A stretch of DNA of 34,505 bases. Source: Planctomycetota bacterium. GTDB taxonomy: Bacteria; Planctomycetota; JAMOSO01. A model generated the notes under the pieces. It ran no database searches and had not been told where the DNA came from. It saw nothing but the letters and a program-made list of their open reading frames with translations. Position numbers and translations under genes: made by a program. The stretch is taken from positions 1 through 34,505 of the forward strand of contig JAMOSO010000044.1 in NCBI GenBank assembly GCA_027063065.1. Direction: 5' to 3'. Positions 7,421-34,181 of the stretch are shown here, in pieces (the first letter of the stretch is position 1; each line of letters begins with the position of its first letter).

Positions 7421-8323
7421 ATGGCTCGTTATTTAAAAGATACTTATATTAGTCCTTTTACGGATTTTGGTTTTAAAAAATTATTTGGCACAGAGCTAAA
7501 TAAGGATTTATTAATTGATTTTTTAAATCAATTATTGCAAAAAGATGAGGGTGTTATTGTAGATTTAACCTATCTTAATAACGAATTATTACCCCGTCAC
7601 CAAGACGAACGCAAGGCCATATTTGATATTTATTGCGAAAATGAAAAAGGCGAGAAATTTATTGTTGAGCTTCAAAAAGCCAAACAAAATTATTTTAAAG
7701 ACCGCAGTATTTATTATTCATCTTTCCCTATTCAGCATCAGGCACAAAAAGGCCCTTGGAATTTTAAATTAAAAGCAATTTATACCATAGGTATCTTAGA
7801 TTTTGTCTTTGATGAAGACAAAGACGATGATCAGATTTTTCATCATGAGGTTAAATTAGTAGACACTAAAACCAAAAAGGTGTTTTATGATAAACTAACC
7901 TATGTTTATTTAGAAATGCCTAAATTTAATAAAACCGAAGACCAACTAGAAACCCAATTTGACAAGTGGATGTATGTACTTAAAAATCTAAACGATTTAA
8001 CTAAACGCCCTGCCAAACTACAAGAACGCGTATTTGAAAAATTATTTAAACAAGCAGAAATAGCCCAATACACAGAACAAGAATATGACGAATACGAACT
8101 AAGCCTAAAATATTATCGCGATTTAAAAAATTCAATAGACACCGCCTACGGAGACGGCTATTTTGAAGGGGTAGAAAAAGGTATTGAGAAAGGTTTGCAA
8201 AAAGGCAAAGAAGAAACCACTATCGCTATAGTTAAAAACCTTAAAAAAGCTGGTGCATCAAACGATATGATTTACCAAGCCACAGGTCTTTCAGTAACAG
8301 AAATAAATAAAATTACACAATAA
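7421..8323 (+). CDS. Rpn-family PD-(D/E)XK nuclease / transposase-like protein
   Basis: A 300-residue protein of the family annotated as Rpn recombination-promoting nuclease or putative transposase (TIGR01784 type). The opening MARYLKDTYISPFTDFGFKKLFG is the family start. The nuclease core reads FDIYC ... KFIVELQKAKQ at about residues 68-88, giving the D and ExQ residues of the PD-(D/E)XK fold. The C-terminal third (about 245-300) carries the charged repeat GVEKGIEKGLQKGKEE and a helix-turn-helix-like tail (GASNDMIYQATGLSVTEI). Family members promote RecA-independent recombination in E. coli. It stands alone with its own promoter and a full-length frame, and I see no terminal repeats, so it is probably not a complete transposon. 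Confidence 0.88.
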   Translation: MARYLKDTYISPFTDFGFKKLFGTELNKDLLIDFLNQLLQKDEGVIVDLTYLNNELLPRHQDERKAIFDIYCENEKGEKFIVELQKAKQNYFKDRSIYYSSFPIQHQAQKGPWNFKLKAIYTIGILDFVFDEDKDDDQIFHHEVKLVDTKTKKVFYDKLTYVYLEMPKFNKTEDQLETQFDKWMYVLKNLNDLTKRPAKLQERVFEKLFKQAEIAQYTEQEYDEYELSLKYYRDLKNSIDTAYGDGYFEGVEKGIEKGLQKGKEETTIAIVKNLKKAGASNDMIYQATGLSVTEINKITQ

Positions 8324-15638: not shown

Positions 15639-16448
15639 TTAAACAAATTTAAAATCTATGTCATACCCAGCATGTGATCTTATATTTATAACTTGATTAT
15701 CAAATATTAAATATTGACCTTTAATAGCTGTTAAAACTCCTGAAATCTCTGAGGTTTTATCTAACCTTGTAGATTTAACTTTTTTTGGCCAATCCAAATG
15801 AGGATAATCCAAAGTAATTGTCTTTGGGGTATCCAACAAACATTGCTTTTGTTCTGGATTTAAAATTTCTTTGACACTTTCTAAAACTTCTTCAAATGGC
15901 TGGTTAGTGATCTCGTTTTTTAACATTTTGTGCCAACTTGTTCTATCGGTGATACCAGCATCTGATATGGATTTTTCGGCCTTGCCAACTTCAAAACGAT
16001 TGGGAAATTTACCAATAACCATAGCTTCTGAGGCACCTTGATCTGCCCACCTGACAAGTTGATTATTAAAACGAGTTATGCCTATTTTTATACTTCCCGA
16101 ACGTGCAAGATACAAACACTGCTCCATAAAACAATTTTGTTTTGCCCATTTTGGCTCTCGACAAGTACCTTCTGCAAAATGACAAGTTTCCGGTTTCATA
16201 ATACACATATCATTACAAGCCAATTTGTTAAAACAAATCCAACACGCCCCTTGACCAAAACTTTTTTTAGTTTTTTTACCACAATGTACACAACTAATTG
16301 AACCATTAAATTTTATAGATACTTCTTTACCGACAATATCATTAAGTGGCAATACAGCTTTACCATCTATAACCAAATTATAATCTACCATACCACCAGA
16401 TAAATTACATTTAGTTTGCATTTTGTTTAAGCTTCCTGAGATTTGCAT
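15639..16448 (-). CDS. DUF2797 family protein
   Basis: A 269-residue protein of the uncharacterised DUF2797 family. It is cysteine-rich in its first 110 residues: C53-x2-C56 and C69-x2-C72 form a probable zinc ribbon, and further cysteines at 76, 82, 89, 96, 106 and 111 suggest a second metal site. YLARSGSIKIGITR (113-126) recalls the GIY-YIG-like segment of the family. The start follows the ttcA stop by one base, so it is the last gene of an operon with a tRNA thiolase. A role in RNA or tRNA modification is plausible from this context only. Confidence 0.82.
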   Translation of the reverse strand: MQISGSLNKMQTKCNLSGGMVDYNLVIDGKAVLPLNDIVGKEVSIKFNGSISCVHCGKKTKKSFGQGACWICFNKLACNDMCIMKPETCHFAEGTCREPKWAKQNCFMEQCLYLARSGSIKIGITRFNNQLVRWADQGASEAMVIGKFPNRFEVGKAEKSISDAGITDRTSWHKMLKNEITNQPFEEVLESVKEILNPEQKQCLLDTPKTITLDYPHLDWPKKVKSTRLDKTSEISGVLTAIKGQYLIFDNQVINIRSHAGYDIDFKFV

Positions 16449-16449
16449 A

Positions 16450-17208
16450 TTAGTCTTCTTTCAATTTTAAATAATTTTTATCCAATAAATGATTGGCTTT
16501 AATATTTTTACACGCACCCAAAATAGAAGCTCCTATATTGGGATGTTTAGTTTCTAAATCTAATAATAAATTGCGTATTTTCTGACGTTTAAAACTATCT
16601 CTATAGCCACAATCACCGCAGTCAATAATTGGAAAATCAATAAACTTTGCATAATCTACAATTAGTTTTTGTGGAGCCAAACAAAAAGGTCTAATTACAG
16701 TATTAATATTATCCTTAGCCTTTAAAACCGCTGGCATTGTAGCTAATGACCCTTCAAAAAATATATTCAATAATAAAGTCTCGTTGATATCATCGCGGTG
16801 ATGCCCAAGTGCAATTTTATTAAAACCGTTTTTTTTAGCATAGGTATATAAAATTCCCCTGCGTAATCTGGCACATAAACTACAACTGGTTTTATTGAAA
16901 GATTTATCTGCAACTATACTATATGTATCCTCATAAATAACCTCTATTTTGATTTGCCTTTTAGCAAACCACTTTATTAATTCATCTGGATTAAACCCCG
17001 GTTGATTTTGATGCAACATTACAGGATAAATTTGAAAATCAACTGGCGAACGTTTTAAGATATCATTAAGAATTAAAATCAAAGCTGTGGAATCTAATCC
17101 ACCACTACAGGCAACTAAGACTTTATCGCCATTTCCTATCATAGAATATTCAGAAATGGCAGTACCTGTCAAACGTCTTAATTTTTCAGAAAACTTATTA
17201 CCTGACAC
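16450..17208 (-). CDS. ttcA: tRNA cytidine(32) 2-sulfurtransferase TtcA
   Basis: A 252-residue ATP pyrophosphatase that thiolates cytidine 32 of tRNA. The PP-loop SGGLDS is at 35-40. Cysteines C109 and C112 (SCSLCARLRRG) and C197 (DCGDCGYRD) occupy the positions that hold the iron-sulfur cluster in E. coli TtcA. GHHRDD (135-140) is the usual second nucleotide-binding segment. The start is GTG at 17208, one base after the lipoprotein stop. The protein is about 60 residues shorter than the E. coli enzyme, mostly at the ends, and no key residue is lost. Confidence 0.93.
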   Translation of the reverse strand: MSGNKFSEKLRRLTGTAISEYSMIGNGDKVLVACSGGLDSTALILILNDILKRSPVDFQIYPVMLHQNQPGFNPDELIKWFAKRQIKIEVIYEDTYSIVADKSFNKTSCSLCARLRRGILYTYAKKNGFNKIALGHHRDDINETLLLNIFFEGSLATMPAVLKAKDNINTVIRPFCLAPQKLIVDYAKFIDFPIIDCGDCGYRDSFKRQKIRNLLLDLETKHPNIGASILGACKNIKANHLLDKNYLKLKED

Positions 17209-31443: not shown

Positions 31444-31451
31444 CTGATTAC

Positions 31452-31481
31452 CATATAAAATAAAAAATTCAATTGTAACAA
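31452..31481 (-). promoter_or_regulatory. Candidate promoter of argC
   Basis: On the minus strand, TTGTTA (31481-31476), an 18-base spacer and TATATG (31457-31452), four of six matches each. The start codon comes eight bases later. A 19-base palindrome ends four bases upstream of the -35 box. Confidence 0.35.
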
Positions 31482-31484
31482 TGC

Positions 31485-31503
31485 TTAATAGAACTTCTAT
31501 TAA
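31485..31503. promoter_or_regulatory. 19-base perfect palindrome, operator candidate
   Basis: TTAATAGAACTTCTATTAA has two nine-base arms around a single C. It stands just upstream of the candidate argC -35 box, where a regulator could act. It does not match the ArgR consensus arms (TGAAT/ATTCA). Confidence 0.5.
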
Positions 31504-31509
31504 AAAATA

Positions 31510-31534
31510 TGACTTTATATAAATTATAAAGTCA
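31510..31534. promoter_or_regulatory. 25-base palindrome with 10-base arms
   Basis: TGACTTTATA (31510-31519) and TATAAAGTCA (31525-31534) flank TAAAT. It lies six bases from the palindrome at 31485-31503, so the pair may form two operators facing argC. On the minus strand a short T-rich stretch follows, but the stem is too AT-rich for a convincing terminator. Confidence 0.45.
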
Positions 31535-31668
31535 ATAAAAGTAAGGATTTAGCTAATTATACAGCAACTCACATATCCTTTTTTTAATTAGCAAGCTTTT
31601 TTATCAAAAAACTAAAGCTCTTTTTAACTGATAATACTTTTAAGGTTTAACTAGCAAATGTTTAGATT

Positions 31669-31693
31669 ACGCCTTATCTAAGGCGTTTTTTTT
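31669..31693 (+). terminator. Orphan Rho-independent terminator
   Basis: ACGCCTT (31669-31675), loop ATCT and AAGGCGT (31680-31686), followed by a run of eight T in all. It is directional for the plus strand. No plus-strand coding gene ends within 4.5 kb upstream, so it should close a small RNA or a dnaA leader transcript. Confidence 0.75.
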
Positions 31694-31850
31694 AATACAC
31701 ATTCGGTATGCGCAAATAAAATACAGGAAATCATAAATGAGTACTTTTCTTAAAGTTAAAATAAAATTTCTAAGCTCTATAAAAATAGCAACTTAGACCA
31801 AACCAAAAACAATAATTAACAATTATATTTTTTACTTATAAATTTGGTTT

Positions 31851-31878
31851 TTGATAAAAATAAATTGAACCATACAAT
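31851..31878 (+). promoter_or_regulatory. dnaA promoter
   Basis: TTGATA (31851-31856), a 16-base spacer and TACAAT (31873-31878), five of six matches in each box. The ATG at 31903 follows 24 bases after the -10 box with AAGGA in between. The inverted 13-mer at 31848-31860 covers the -35 box. Confidence 0.65.
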
Positions 31879-31902
31879 ACTTTTTTGTTTTTATAAGGAA
31901 TT

Positions 31903-33315
31903 ATGTCTCAAGAGATTACTAAACAAAATTTAACTTCGCAGTTCCAAGAAGCTAGCTCAGTAATTTTTAGATTATTAGAGCAAAAACTTGGTTCACCTGT
32001 TTTTAATTTATGGCTAGTAAATACTCATTTTATTGAATTAAATGATCATAAAGCTATTTTGGGTGTACAAAATCGCTTTATAAAAAATTGGATTGAGCGC
32101 AAATATACCAAAGATATTTTAAGCTCCATCGATGAAATATGTAATATTCAACCTGATTTGAATATTAAAATAGACGCAAATTTATTTAGCAAATCCAAAG
32201 ATATAAACTCTTCTCAAAAAAATATTCAAGATACAGATGAAAGTTTAAATAAAAACAATGTTTGCTATCATTCTCAAAACAACAAAATAACCCAAGCAAA
32301 TGTTAAACAAAAATATAGATTAGAAAGTTTTATTGGCATACAAGACAACGCATTACCTTTGTTAGTTGCGCGCCAATTTGTAGATGAAATCAAAAATTCA
32401 CTATACCATAAATTGTCTTTCTTTGGTGCAAAAGGAAACGGAAAGACACATTTATTAAAAGGTATTGAAATCGCCTTATGCACAAACGGTTGTAATTTAT
32501 CTACCAAATACTCAACAGCAGAAGCATTTACAAACAGCTATGTACATGCTATTCAATCTAAACAATATAATGAATTTCAAAAAACGTATAATAATTTAGA
32601 TGTTTTAATTTTAGACGACATACAATTTTTGGCGGGCAAAACCAAAACTCAAGAAGGATTATTAAGCACTATAAAACATTTAGAAAGCGAAGGAAAGCAC
32701 ATCGTATTAGCTAGCGATAGACACCCAAACAACATACCTGGTCTTTGCCCTAACCTGAGAGAATTTATTTCTGCGGGTATGATGATTGAAGTACCGCCCC
32801 CATGCCATACAAGCAGAATGGCCATTTTAAAGAGCTTATGCTGTAAAGCCTCTGCACAGTGTCCAAATAATGTTTTAGAATTTTTAGCCAAGCATTTCAC
32901 ATCTTCGGTCAGAGAATTAGAAGGTGCATTATTAAAAGTTATGGCTTATTCTTCTCTTTGCAAACAACCAGCATCTGTCGAGCTATCCCGCAAAATATTA
33001 CAACCACACTTAATGCATTCCCAAAAAAACAAGGATAATGTAGAATCGATAATAAATGATGTGGCAGCAATTTTTACGGCTGATCCCAAAGATTTAATAT
33101 CTAGAAAACAAGATAGAAGCACTGTAAGAGCGCGTCAAATTGCAATGTATACAGTTAGAAAATTATCGCAAAAATCCTACCAAGAAATAGGCAATATTTT
33201 TGGTGGCAAAAAATACTCTGCTGTTATGTATGCAGAAAAAATAGCTCAAAAAATTATTGATAATGATCCAAATGTGGCTCGTCACGTCGATGCAATTATA
33301 AAGAGGTACAAATGA
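31903..33315 (+). CDS. dnaA: Chromosomal replication initiator DnaA homologue, divergent
   Basis: A 470-residue DnaA with all four domains: N-terminal interaction domain (about 15-85), a polar linker (about 92-135), AAA+ domain (about 140-350) and helix-turn-helix domain IV (about 375-470). Walker A is GAKGNGKT (175-182), Walker B is LILDDIQFLAG (235-245) and sensor 2 SVRELEGAL (335-343) is intact. The Box VII arginines are lost: E. coli R281 and R285 align without gaps to N284 and F288. The five base-contacting residues of E. coli (R399, P423, D433, H434, T435) align to Q403, Q427, K437, Y438 and S439; the usual GGRDHTTV reads GGKKYSAV. It may be a second DnaA or the initiator of a lineage with a different box. 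AAGGA precedes the ATG. Confidence 0.92.
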   Translation: MSQEITKQNLTSQFQEASSVIFRLLEQKLGSPVFNLWLVNTHFIELNDHKAILGVQNRFIKNWIERKYTKDILSSIDEICNIQPDLNIKIDANLFSKSKDINSSQKNIQDTDESLNKNNVCYHSQNNKITQANVKQKYRLESFIGIQDNALPLLVARQFVDEIKNSLYHKLSFFGAKGNGKTHLLKGIEIALCTNGCNLSTKYSTAEAFTNSYVHAIQSKQYNEFQKTYNNLDVLILDDIQFLAGKTKTQEGLLSTIKHLESEGKHIVLASDRHPNNIPGLCPNLREFISAGMMIEVPPPCHTSRMAILKSLCCKASAQCPNNVLEFLAKHFTSSVRELEGALLKVMAYSSLCKQPASVELSRKILQPHLMHSQKNKDNVESIINDVAAIFTADPKDLISRKQDRSTVRARQIAMYTVRKLSQKSYQEIGNIFGGKKYSAVMYAEKIAQKIIDNDPNVARHVDAIIKRYK

Positions 33316-34181
33316 GTTTTAGAAACAACTTAAACAATGCCATTATAGAAAAAAACTCGCGCTTATGCGTTGGATTAGACCCTCAAATTGCTAATTTACC
33401 AGAATGTTTTAAAGGTGCAAAATCAGCTCAAGATATTGCAAATAATATTTTAGAATTTAATAAAGTAGTAATCGATGCCTGTGCCGAGTATGCTGCGTGT
33501 ATTAAACCTCAAATAGCATATTACGAAATTTTAGGTCATGAAGGCTTACGTTGCTATGAAGAAACCACTGCATATGCACAGAGTCAAGACCTATTGGTAG
33601 TAGGCGATGCCAAGCGTGGTGATATAGGTTCCACCTCACAGGCCTATGCAGATGCCCATTTAAAGAATCAATATGGGCTAAAACGACCTGACGCATTAAC
33701 TGTAAATCCTTTTTTTGGTACAGACGGTATTGAGCCTTTTATTAAGACAGCCAAAGCAGAAAACAAAGGTATTTACCTATTAGTAAAAACATCAAACCCT
33801 TCTTCTGCGGAAATACAAGATCAATTAATTAATAATGAACCTCTATACCGACATATAGCAAAATTACTAACCAAGTGGGAACAGAAATATCAATTTGACA
33901 GTCTTGGTGCCGTGATTGGCGCTACTCATCCCGAAGAACTCAAACTTCTTCGAGAACTAATGCCAAATACACCATTATTAATACCAGGTTATGGAGCTCA
34001 AGGTGGTACAGCCGATAAACTTAGTCCAGCATTTAACGCAAATGGTTTAGATGCAGTAATCAACTCTTCAAGAGGTATATTGTATTCTTGGCAAAAAGAA
34101 ATAAACGGTCAAAAAGAATTTAAAAGTATCATAGCAAGCACAGCAAAAGCAAGTCGTGACGACATTAATAAAGCCATATAA
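33312..34181 (+). CDS. pyrF: Orotidine 5'-phosphate decarboxylase, type 2
   Basis: A 289-residue decarboxylase that makes UMP. The active site motif VVGDAKRGDIGST gives D99, K101 and D104; D23 (VGLDP) and K65 (CIKPQIAYYE) are also in place. The length and the LKRPDALTVNPFFGTDG and IPGYGAQGG segments are those of the longer type 2 enzymes. It overlaps dnaA as ATGA, so it is translated from the same transcript, an unusual pairing; dnaN, the common neighbour of dnaA, is absent. It ends flush against the convergent truB stop. Confidence 0.95.
   Translation: MSFRNNLNNAIIEKNSRLCVGLDPQIANLPECFKGAKSAQDIANNILEFNKVVIDACAEYAACIKPQIAYYEILGHEGLRCYEETTAYAQSQDLLVVGDAKRGDIGSTSQAYADAHLKNQYGLKRPDALTVNPFFGTDGIEPFIKTAKAENKGIYLLVKTSNPSSAEIQDQLINNEPLYRHIAKLLTKWEQKYQFDSLGAVIGATHPEELKLLRELMPNTPLLIPGYGAQGGTADKLSPAFNANGLDAVINSSRGILYSWQKEINGQKEFKSIIASTAKASRDDINKAI

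Follow-up and report, generated by a model that had tools for sequence, protein, structure and literature searches.

The DnaA protein encoded in a 34,505-nucleotide stretch of a Planctomycetota genome (contig JAMOSO010000044.1, here called the window) is likely an extreme member of a second DnaA lineage whose box-reading residues and ATP-interface arginines appear to be under relaxed or altered constraint. Most of the 58 Planctomycetota genomes examined as relatives encode two DnaAs: copy A, which usually adjoins dnaN, and copy B, the second lineage, which never did so among the loci read. What is new here is the phylum-wide B lineage and, in the window genome, a candidate re-coded origin array upstream of dnaN. 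Few recognition pairs in bacteria are as conserved as DnaA and its box, and a second DnaA whose box contacts and interface arginines are free to vary across a phylum offers a natural set with which to probe the roles of those residues. Our searches of the open-access literature turned up no account of two DnaAs in Planctomycetota. Two genes, DnaA1 and DnaA2, also occur in the chlamydiae, a PVC phylum, and the likeness that we note is that of having two genes.

The window encodes a full-length DnaA with an unusual DNA-reading face

The gene, its surroundings and the residues discussed below lie in the window as follows.

31444..31902, no strand: argC-dnaA intergenic region, 22% GC, without TTWTNCACA, TTTACAT or any enriched word
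31903..33315, + strand: dnaA, assigned to the B lineage, 470 aa, the lone PF00308/PF08299 match of the assembly
31969..32130, + strand: domain I (DnaA_N), aa 23-76, PF11638 at 43.8 bits
32305..32787, + strand: domain III AAA+ core, aa 135-295, with Walker A K181, Walker B D238 and V214 kept, from PF00308 and the residue map
32590..32592, + strand: R227N, ATP-DnaA interface AID-1 position, by alignment
32752..32766, + strand: R281N and R285F (R285 is the arginine finger), by alignment
33040..33240, + strand: domain IV, DNA binding, aa 380-446, PF08299 at 74.7 bits
33109..33111, + strand: R399Q, a minor-groove contact in E. coli, by alignment
33178..33183, + strand: L422Y and P423Q (codon 33181-33183; 423 is variable in the phylum), by alignment
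33208..33222, + strand: R432K, D433K (33211-33213), H434Y (33214-33216), T435S (33217-33219) and T436A, start of the recognition helix, GGRDHTT to GGKKYSA, by alignment
33312..34181, + strand: pyrF (OMP decarboxylase), its start overlapped by the dnaA stop, with the skew sign of the remaining window

By profile search, the open reading frame is a full-length DnaA. DnaA_N, Bac_DnaA and Bac_DnaA_C all match, and the DnaA family profile TIGR00362 scores 348.7 bits, above its cut-off of 343.9. The Hda profile of NCBIfam scores 80.2 bits, far below its cut-off of 194.8, and while the AAA+ part of Hda is related to that of the window DnaA, Hda lacks the domain IV that the window protein has. A search with the window DnaA against genome contigs and viral contigs returned no relatives. 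Elsewhere in the window, an open reading frame at 7421-8323 encodes a transposase of the PD-(D/E)XK nuclease family (Rpn-like).

Domain IV aligned without gaps in a MAFFT alignment of E. coli DnaA, about 90 relatives and the window protein, and likewise with the solved structure of B. subtilis DnaA (8btg); the numbering was verified (E. coli 399 is R, 423 is P, and 433-436 are DHTT). The original prediction held that R399, P423, D433, H434 and T435 are replaced by Q, Q, K, Y and S, and each substitution is correct in the gap-free alignment. It did not mention T436A, R432K and L422Y. Its further claim, that all five known box contacts are lost, is overstated: the substitutions are real, but ordinary DnaAs of the phylum are variable at 423 (not P in most dnaN-linked copies, E in 25 of the 47 A-type ones) and at 435 (S in 20 of 47). 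Thus, P423Q and T435S carry no weight. For comparison, 35 Planctomycetota DnaAs with readable columns were picked by dnaN synteny alone, blind to residues, and at positions 399/433/434/436 they read RDHT (32 proteins), RHHT (two) or RNHT (one), with none QKYA-like. On this alignment, R399Q, D433K, H434Y and T436A are the unusual and informative changes, and where canonical DnaA carries the DHT signature and R399, the window protein carries KYS and Q.

According to an E. coli DnaA review (PMC5742627), R399 reads the 5' TTA part of the box through the minor groove and the helix from 434 onward reads 5'-TnCACA. Base-contact positions are listed in another article (PMC5043019) as 399, 423 and 432-435/438-439. 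We infer that DNA recognition is altered and that TTATCCACA is no longer read. Altered box preference in epsilonproteobacterial DnaA is likewise ascribed to the start of recognition helix 5, but that protein keeps R399 and the D433/H434 dyad and prefers T at box position 5, whereas the window DnaA lacks the dyad (PMC5043019).

Arginines of the ATP interface are also replaced

Three ATP-interface arginines absent from the original prediction, R227, R281 and R285, are replaced as well. Positions 281/285 are RR in 34 of the 35 dnaN-linked Planctomycetota DnaAs, and the window protein has N and F, two further informative changes. In E. coli, R285 plays an important part in the ATP-dependent activation of oriC complexes, and R281 is required for helicase loading (PMC5742627). 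Loss of all three counts against a classical ATP-DnaA filament. In common with the DnaAs of E. coli and B. subtilis, the window protein has the domain order I-III-IV, Walker A K178 (K181 in the feature list), Walker B D235 (D238), V211 of the single-stranded DNA motif (V214), sensor II R334 and a gap-free domain IV; R245 has become K. It differs from them in lacking D433, H434, T436, R399, R227, R281 and R285, and its gene lies off the origin without an adjoining dnaN. The protein would still fold as a DnaA, bind ATP through the conserved Walker motifs and bind DNA through domain IV, but it would neither read TTATCCACA nor form the usual arginine-finger filament.

Two DnaA lineages in the Planctomycetota

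Copy A typically keeps R399, D433/H434, R281 and R285. With copies labeled by dnaN linkage, and manually for 13 of them, R281 was kept in 46 of 47 A copies versus 5 of 41 B copies, and H434 in 47 of 47 versus 28 of 41. Of 47 A copies 43 kept D433, which S, N, T and other residues replace in nearly every B copy, and R285 was kept in 30 of 41 B copies. Because B copies have lost D433 and R281, and often H434, the window pattern is probably the extreme end of a lineage-wide trend. The window protein has the traits of B (R281 and D433 lost, no dnaN neighbor), and its grouping with this phylum-wide lineage supports the paralogue that the original prediction had offered as one reading. Other second copies, such as the 6.17-Mb copy of G047, resemble it in belonging to clade B, lacking a dnaN neighbor and having lost R281 and D433, but they usually have an A copy alongside and most keep R285 and H434. 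Individual substitutions recur: a DnaA from another genome (L014) shares Y422, Q423, K432 and K433 with the window DnaA, and R399Q is found again at L078. Contigs of Gimesia and other Planctomycetota match the G047 DnaA at about 80%. No conserved gene neighbors of B copies were found. Separately, we note that two Planctomycetota assemblies, G037 (93% complete) and G040 (83%), have no PF08299 match at all.

An alternative that we consider unlikely is that the window protein is a very divergent descendant of copy A, drawn toward B by long-branch attraction and parallel loss. It is the single copy found in its genome, and the first tree joined it to two long-branched position-1 copies from two complete genomes, one of them Gimesia-like. 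A careful tree that left those two out separated A (26 rows, 97/75) from B (19 rows) and placed the window protein inside B at 100/97. Forcing it into A cost 14.6 log units and was not rejected by the AU test (p 0.116), and its branch is very long. Against descent from A, however, R281N, R285F and D433K match B and almost no A copy, and the gene has no adjoining dnaN. Membership in B is the likelier placement.

The dnaA locus is not the origin, and a noncanonical array lies upstream of dnaN

Third-codon GC skew keeps one sign across all 28 window genes, whichever strand they lie on and whether they precede or follow dnaA, the window covering about 2.6 kb to the right of the dnaA start. Comparing skew with the dnaA locus, the check named in the original prediction, thus leads us to reject the locus as an origin. 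Linkage to dnaN, the other mark of a canonical origin-proximal dnaA, is also missing, as dnaN lies on another contig. No TTWTNCACA, TTTACAT or enriched word of any kind occurs in the 459 bp that precede dnaA. The original prediction took the missing box as agreeing with a new specificity; the box is indeed absent, but because the locus is not the origin, its absence is weak support.

In relatives, the dnaA-dnaN gap holds canonical boxes (24 TTWTNCACA in 17.2 kb, and 36 in whole loci where 5.9 are expected), and thus the DNA upstream of dnaN is where an origin is expected. Skew was surveyed by sampling contig ends. The dnaN contig (C27) runs from -0.46 at its start to about -0.1 at dnaN, and an overlapping contig (C63) starts at +0.16. 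Thus, the change of sign on the main chromosome, from negative to positive, seems to fall at dnaN or close to it, with a weak signal (-0.1 to +0.2). The best-scoring ParB of three spans the join of C27 and C35. At L055:9012-11127, separately, dnaN closes a long co-directional flagellar gene cluster and is followed by rpmF and plsX.

Upstream of dnaN in the window genome is a polysaccharide deacetylase gene rather than dnaA, across a gap of 265 bp at 16% GC. The gap contains no canonical box. It contains six TTTACAT words, three spaced 11 bp apart on the same strand, two spaced 9 bp apart and one alone, and five of the six read TTTTACATW, which is TTWTNCACA bearing T in place of C8. It is the recognition helix, altered here at D433, H434 and T436, that reads the half of the box containing this base. 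None of 2,000 shuffles reached six words in 265 bp, the array is the densest spot in the 847 kb sampled, and three of the seven direct TTTACAT pairs of the assembly lie here. Canonical TTWTNCACA is not enriched in the assembly (36 versus 50 for the reversed control), and no direct pair of canonical boxes within 30 bp occurs anywhere in it. The new specificity proposed in the original prediction is thereby plausible, the assembly being without clustered canonical boxes and dnaN having a unique TTTTACATW array, but it is unproven. The array could also be the sites of another dnaN regulator.

Two other skew switches probably mark secondary replicons

Clear switches from negative to positive skew occur at two other sites, one on C48, where the switch is sharp, and one on C1. 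Each has its own parS and parAB, the assembly containing three parAB systems.

L236 (C48):16214-17060: 18-bp repeat TTTAYACTNAAATATCAA, 17 degenerate copies, next to parS-parAB and an RPA-like ORF where GC skew switches sharply
L233 (C1):15216-17075 and C1:40064-41841: another RPA-like ORF at a skew switch, accompanied by a parS and parAB of its own

The two ORFs, of about 620 aa, are homologous (30% identity, E 8e-74) and match PF10134 (Replication initiator protein A) below the gathering score, at 4.8e-6 for the 616-aa C48 ORF and at 0.0026. Because homologous RPA-like ORFs each accompany their own parAB, C48 and C1 are best read, from sequence, as two secondary replicons with their own initiators, and the genome probably holds three replicons. 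The TTTAYACTNAAATATCAA repeats would then most simply be iterons of a secondary-replicon origin. We had taken TTACAC words, and then the C48 18-bp array, as altered DnaA boxes. Both candidates were statistically very strong, and both were dropped given the three parAB systems and the two homologous RPA-like ORFs at the sharpest switches. That C48 bears the chromosomal origin, with the array at 16214-17060 as altered boxes, is now very improbable: the 17 copies (EM score 296 versus a shuffled maximum of 207), the sharp switch and the adjoining parS and parAB fit it, but the 616-aa ORF alongside, with its weak PF10134 match and a homologue at the C1 switch, points to a secondary replicon with its own initiator.

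How the window protein might function in the cell

The window genome, at 2.13 Mb in 71 contigs and 90.5% completeness, is the sole representative of its class in the sample, and its whole assembly has one match each to PF08299 and PF00308. A search for a second dnaA and for dnaN, as the original prediction advised, found dnaN on another contig and no second dnaA in the assembly, at that completeness. Perhaps the window protein is the chromosomal DnaA, which would act on the six TTTTACATW-like putative sites upstream of dnaN and start replication there; we put this close to an even chance. The lone DnaA and the noncanonical array at the dnaN skew crossing together suggest that the DnaA box may have been re-coded, with the window protein as initiator. 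More tentatively, ordinary DnaA may have been lost and the B paralogue become the sole chromosomal initiator on re-coded TTTTACATW boxes, initiator and box having been swapped together. Were it the sole DnaA of the cell, an initiator and its origin signal could be re-coded together and the arginine finger would be dispensable. Counting against initiation, however, is the loss of R227, R281 and R285, on which the initiation complex of E. coli depends (PMC5742627). Moreover, B coexists with A elsewhere, which suggests that B had a different ancestral job.

Alternatively, a canonical A-type dnaA may sit in unassembled sequence and the window protein may serve as an auxiliary beside it, which we regard as plausible if somewhat short of even. 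The completeness of 90.5% leaves room for such a gene. Six genomes (G004, G008, G031, G035, G054 and G058) yielded B and no A, and G058 has B alone where its genus mate G007 has both copies; because B-only genomes are about as frequent as incompleteness predicts, they were rejected as proof of A loss, and loss cannot be claimed from the counts. Nevertheless, dnaN is assembled with a polysaccharide deacetylase gene in the place of dnaA, the array beside it is noncanonical, and canonical box clusters are found nowhere in the assembly. Moreover, about two dozen pairs of contig ends overlap, an estimated two-thirds of testable breaks, and thus many breaks are not gaps and much of the breakage is not lost sequence. 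We consider it unlikely that the window protein stands outside initiation, a decaying or re-purposed remnant in a cell whose replication is DnaA independent. Loss of the interface arginines and box contacts would fit, and some cyanobacteria are known to have lost DnaA (PMC7198777). The ORF is full length and intact, however, and keeps the Walker motifs, domain I, V211 and R334. Among these readings we lean slightly to the window protein as the chromosomal DnaA, acting on the array upstream of dnaN.

A changed box may have arisen more than once. The dnaN-linked DnaA of another genome, G017 (L104), carries D433H. In that genome the DNA between dnaA and dnaN lacks canonical boxes, and TTTAACAA-like words recur in it. 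None of 1,000 shuffles reached the TTAACAA count observed in that gap, and G017 is a possible second case, parallel to the window genome.
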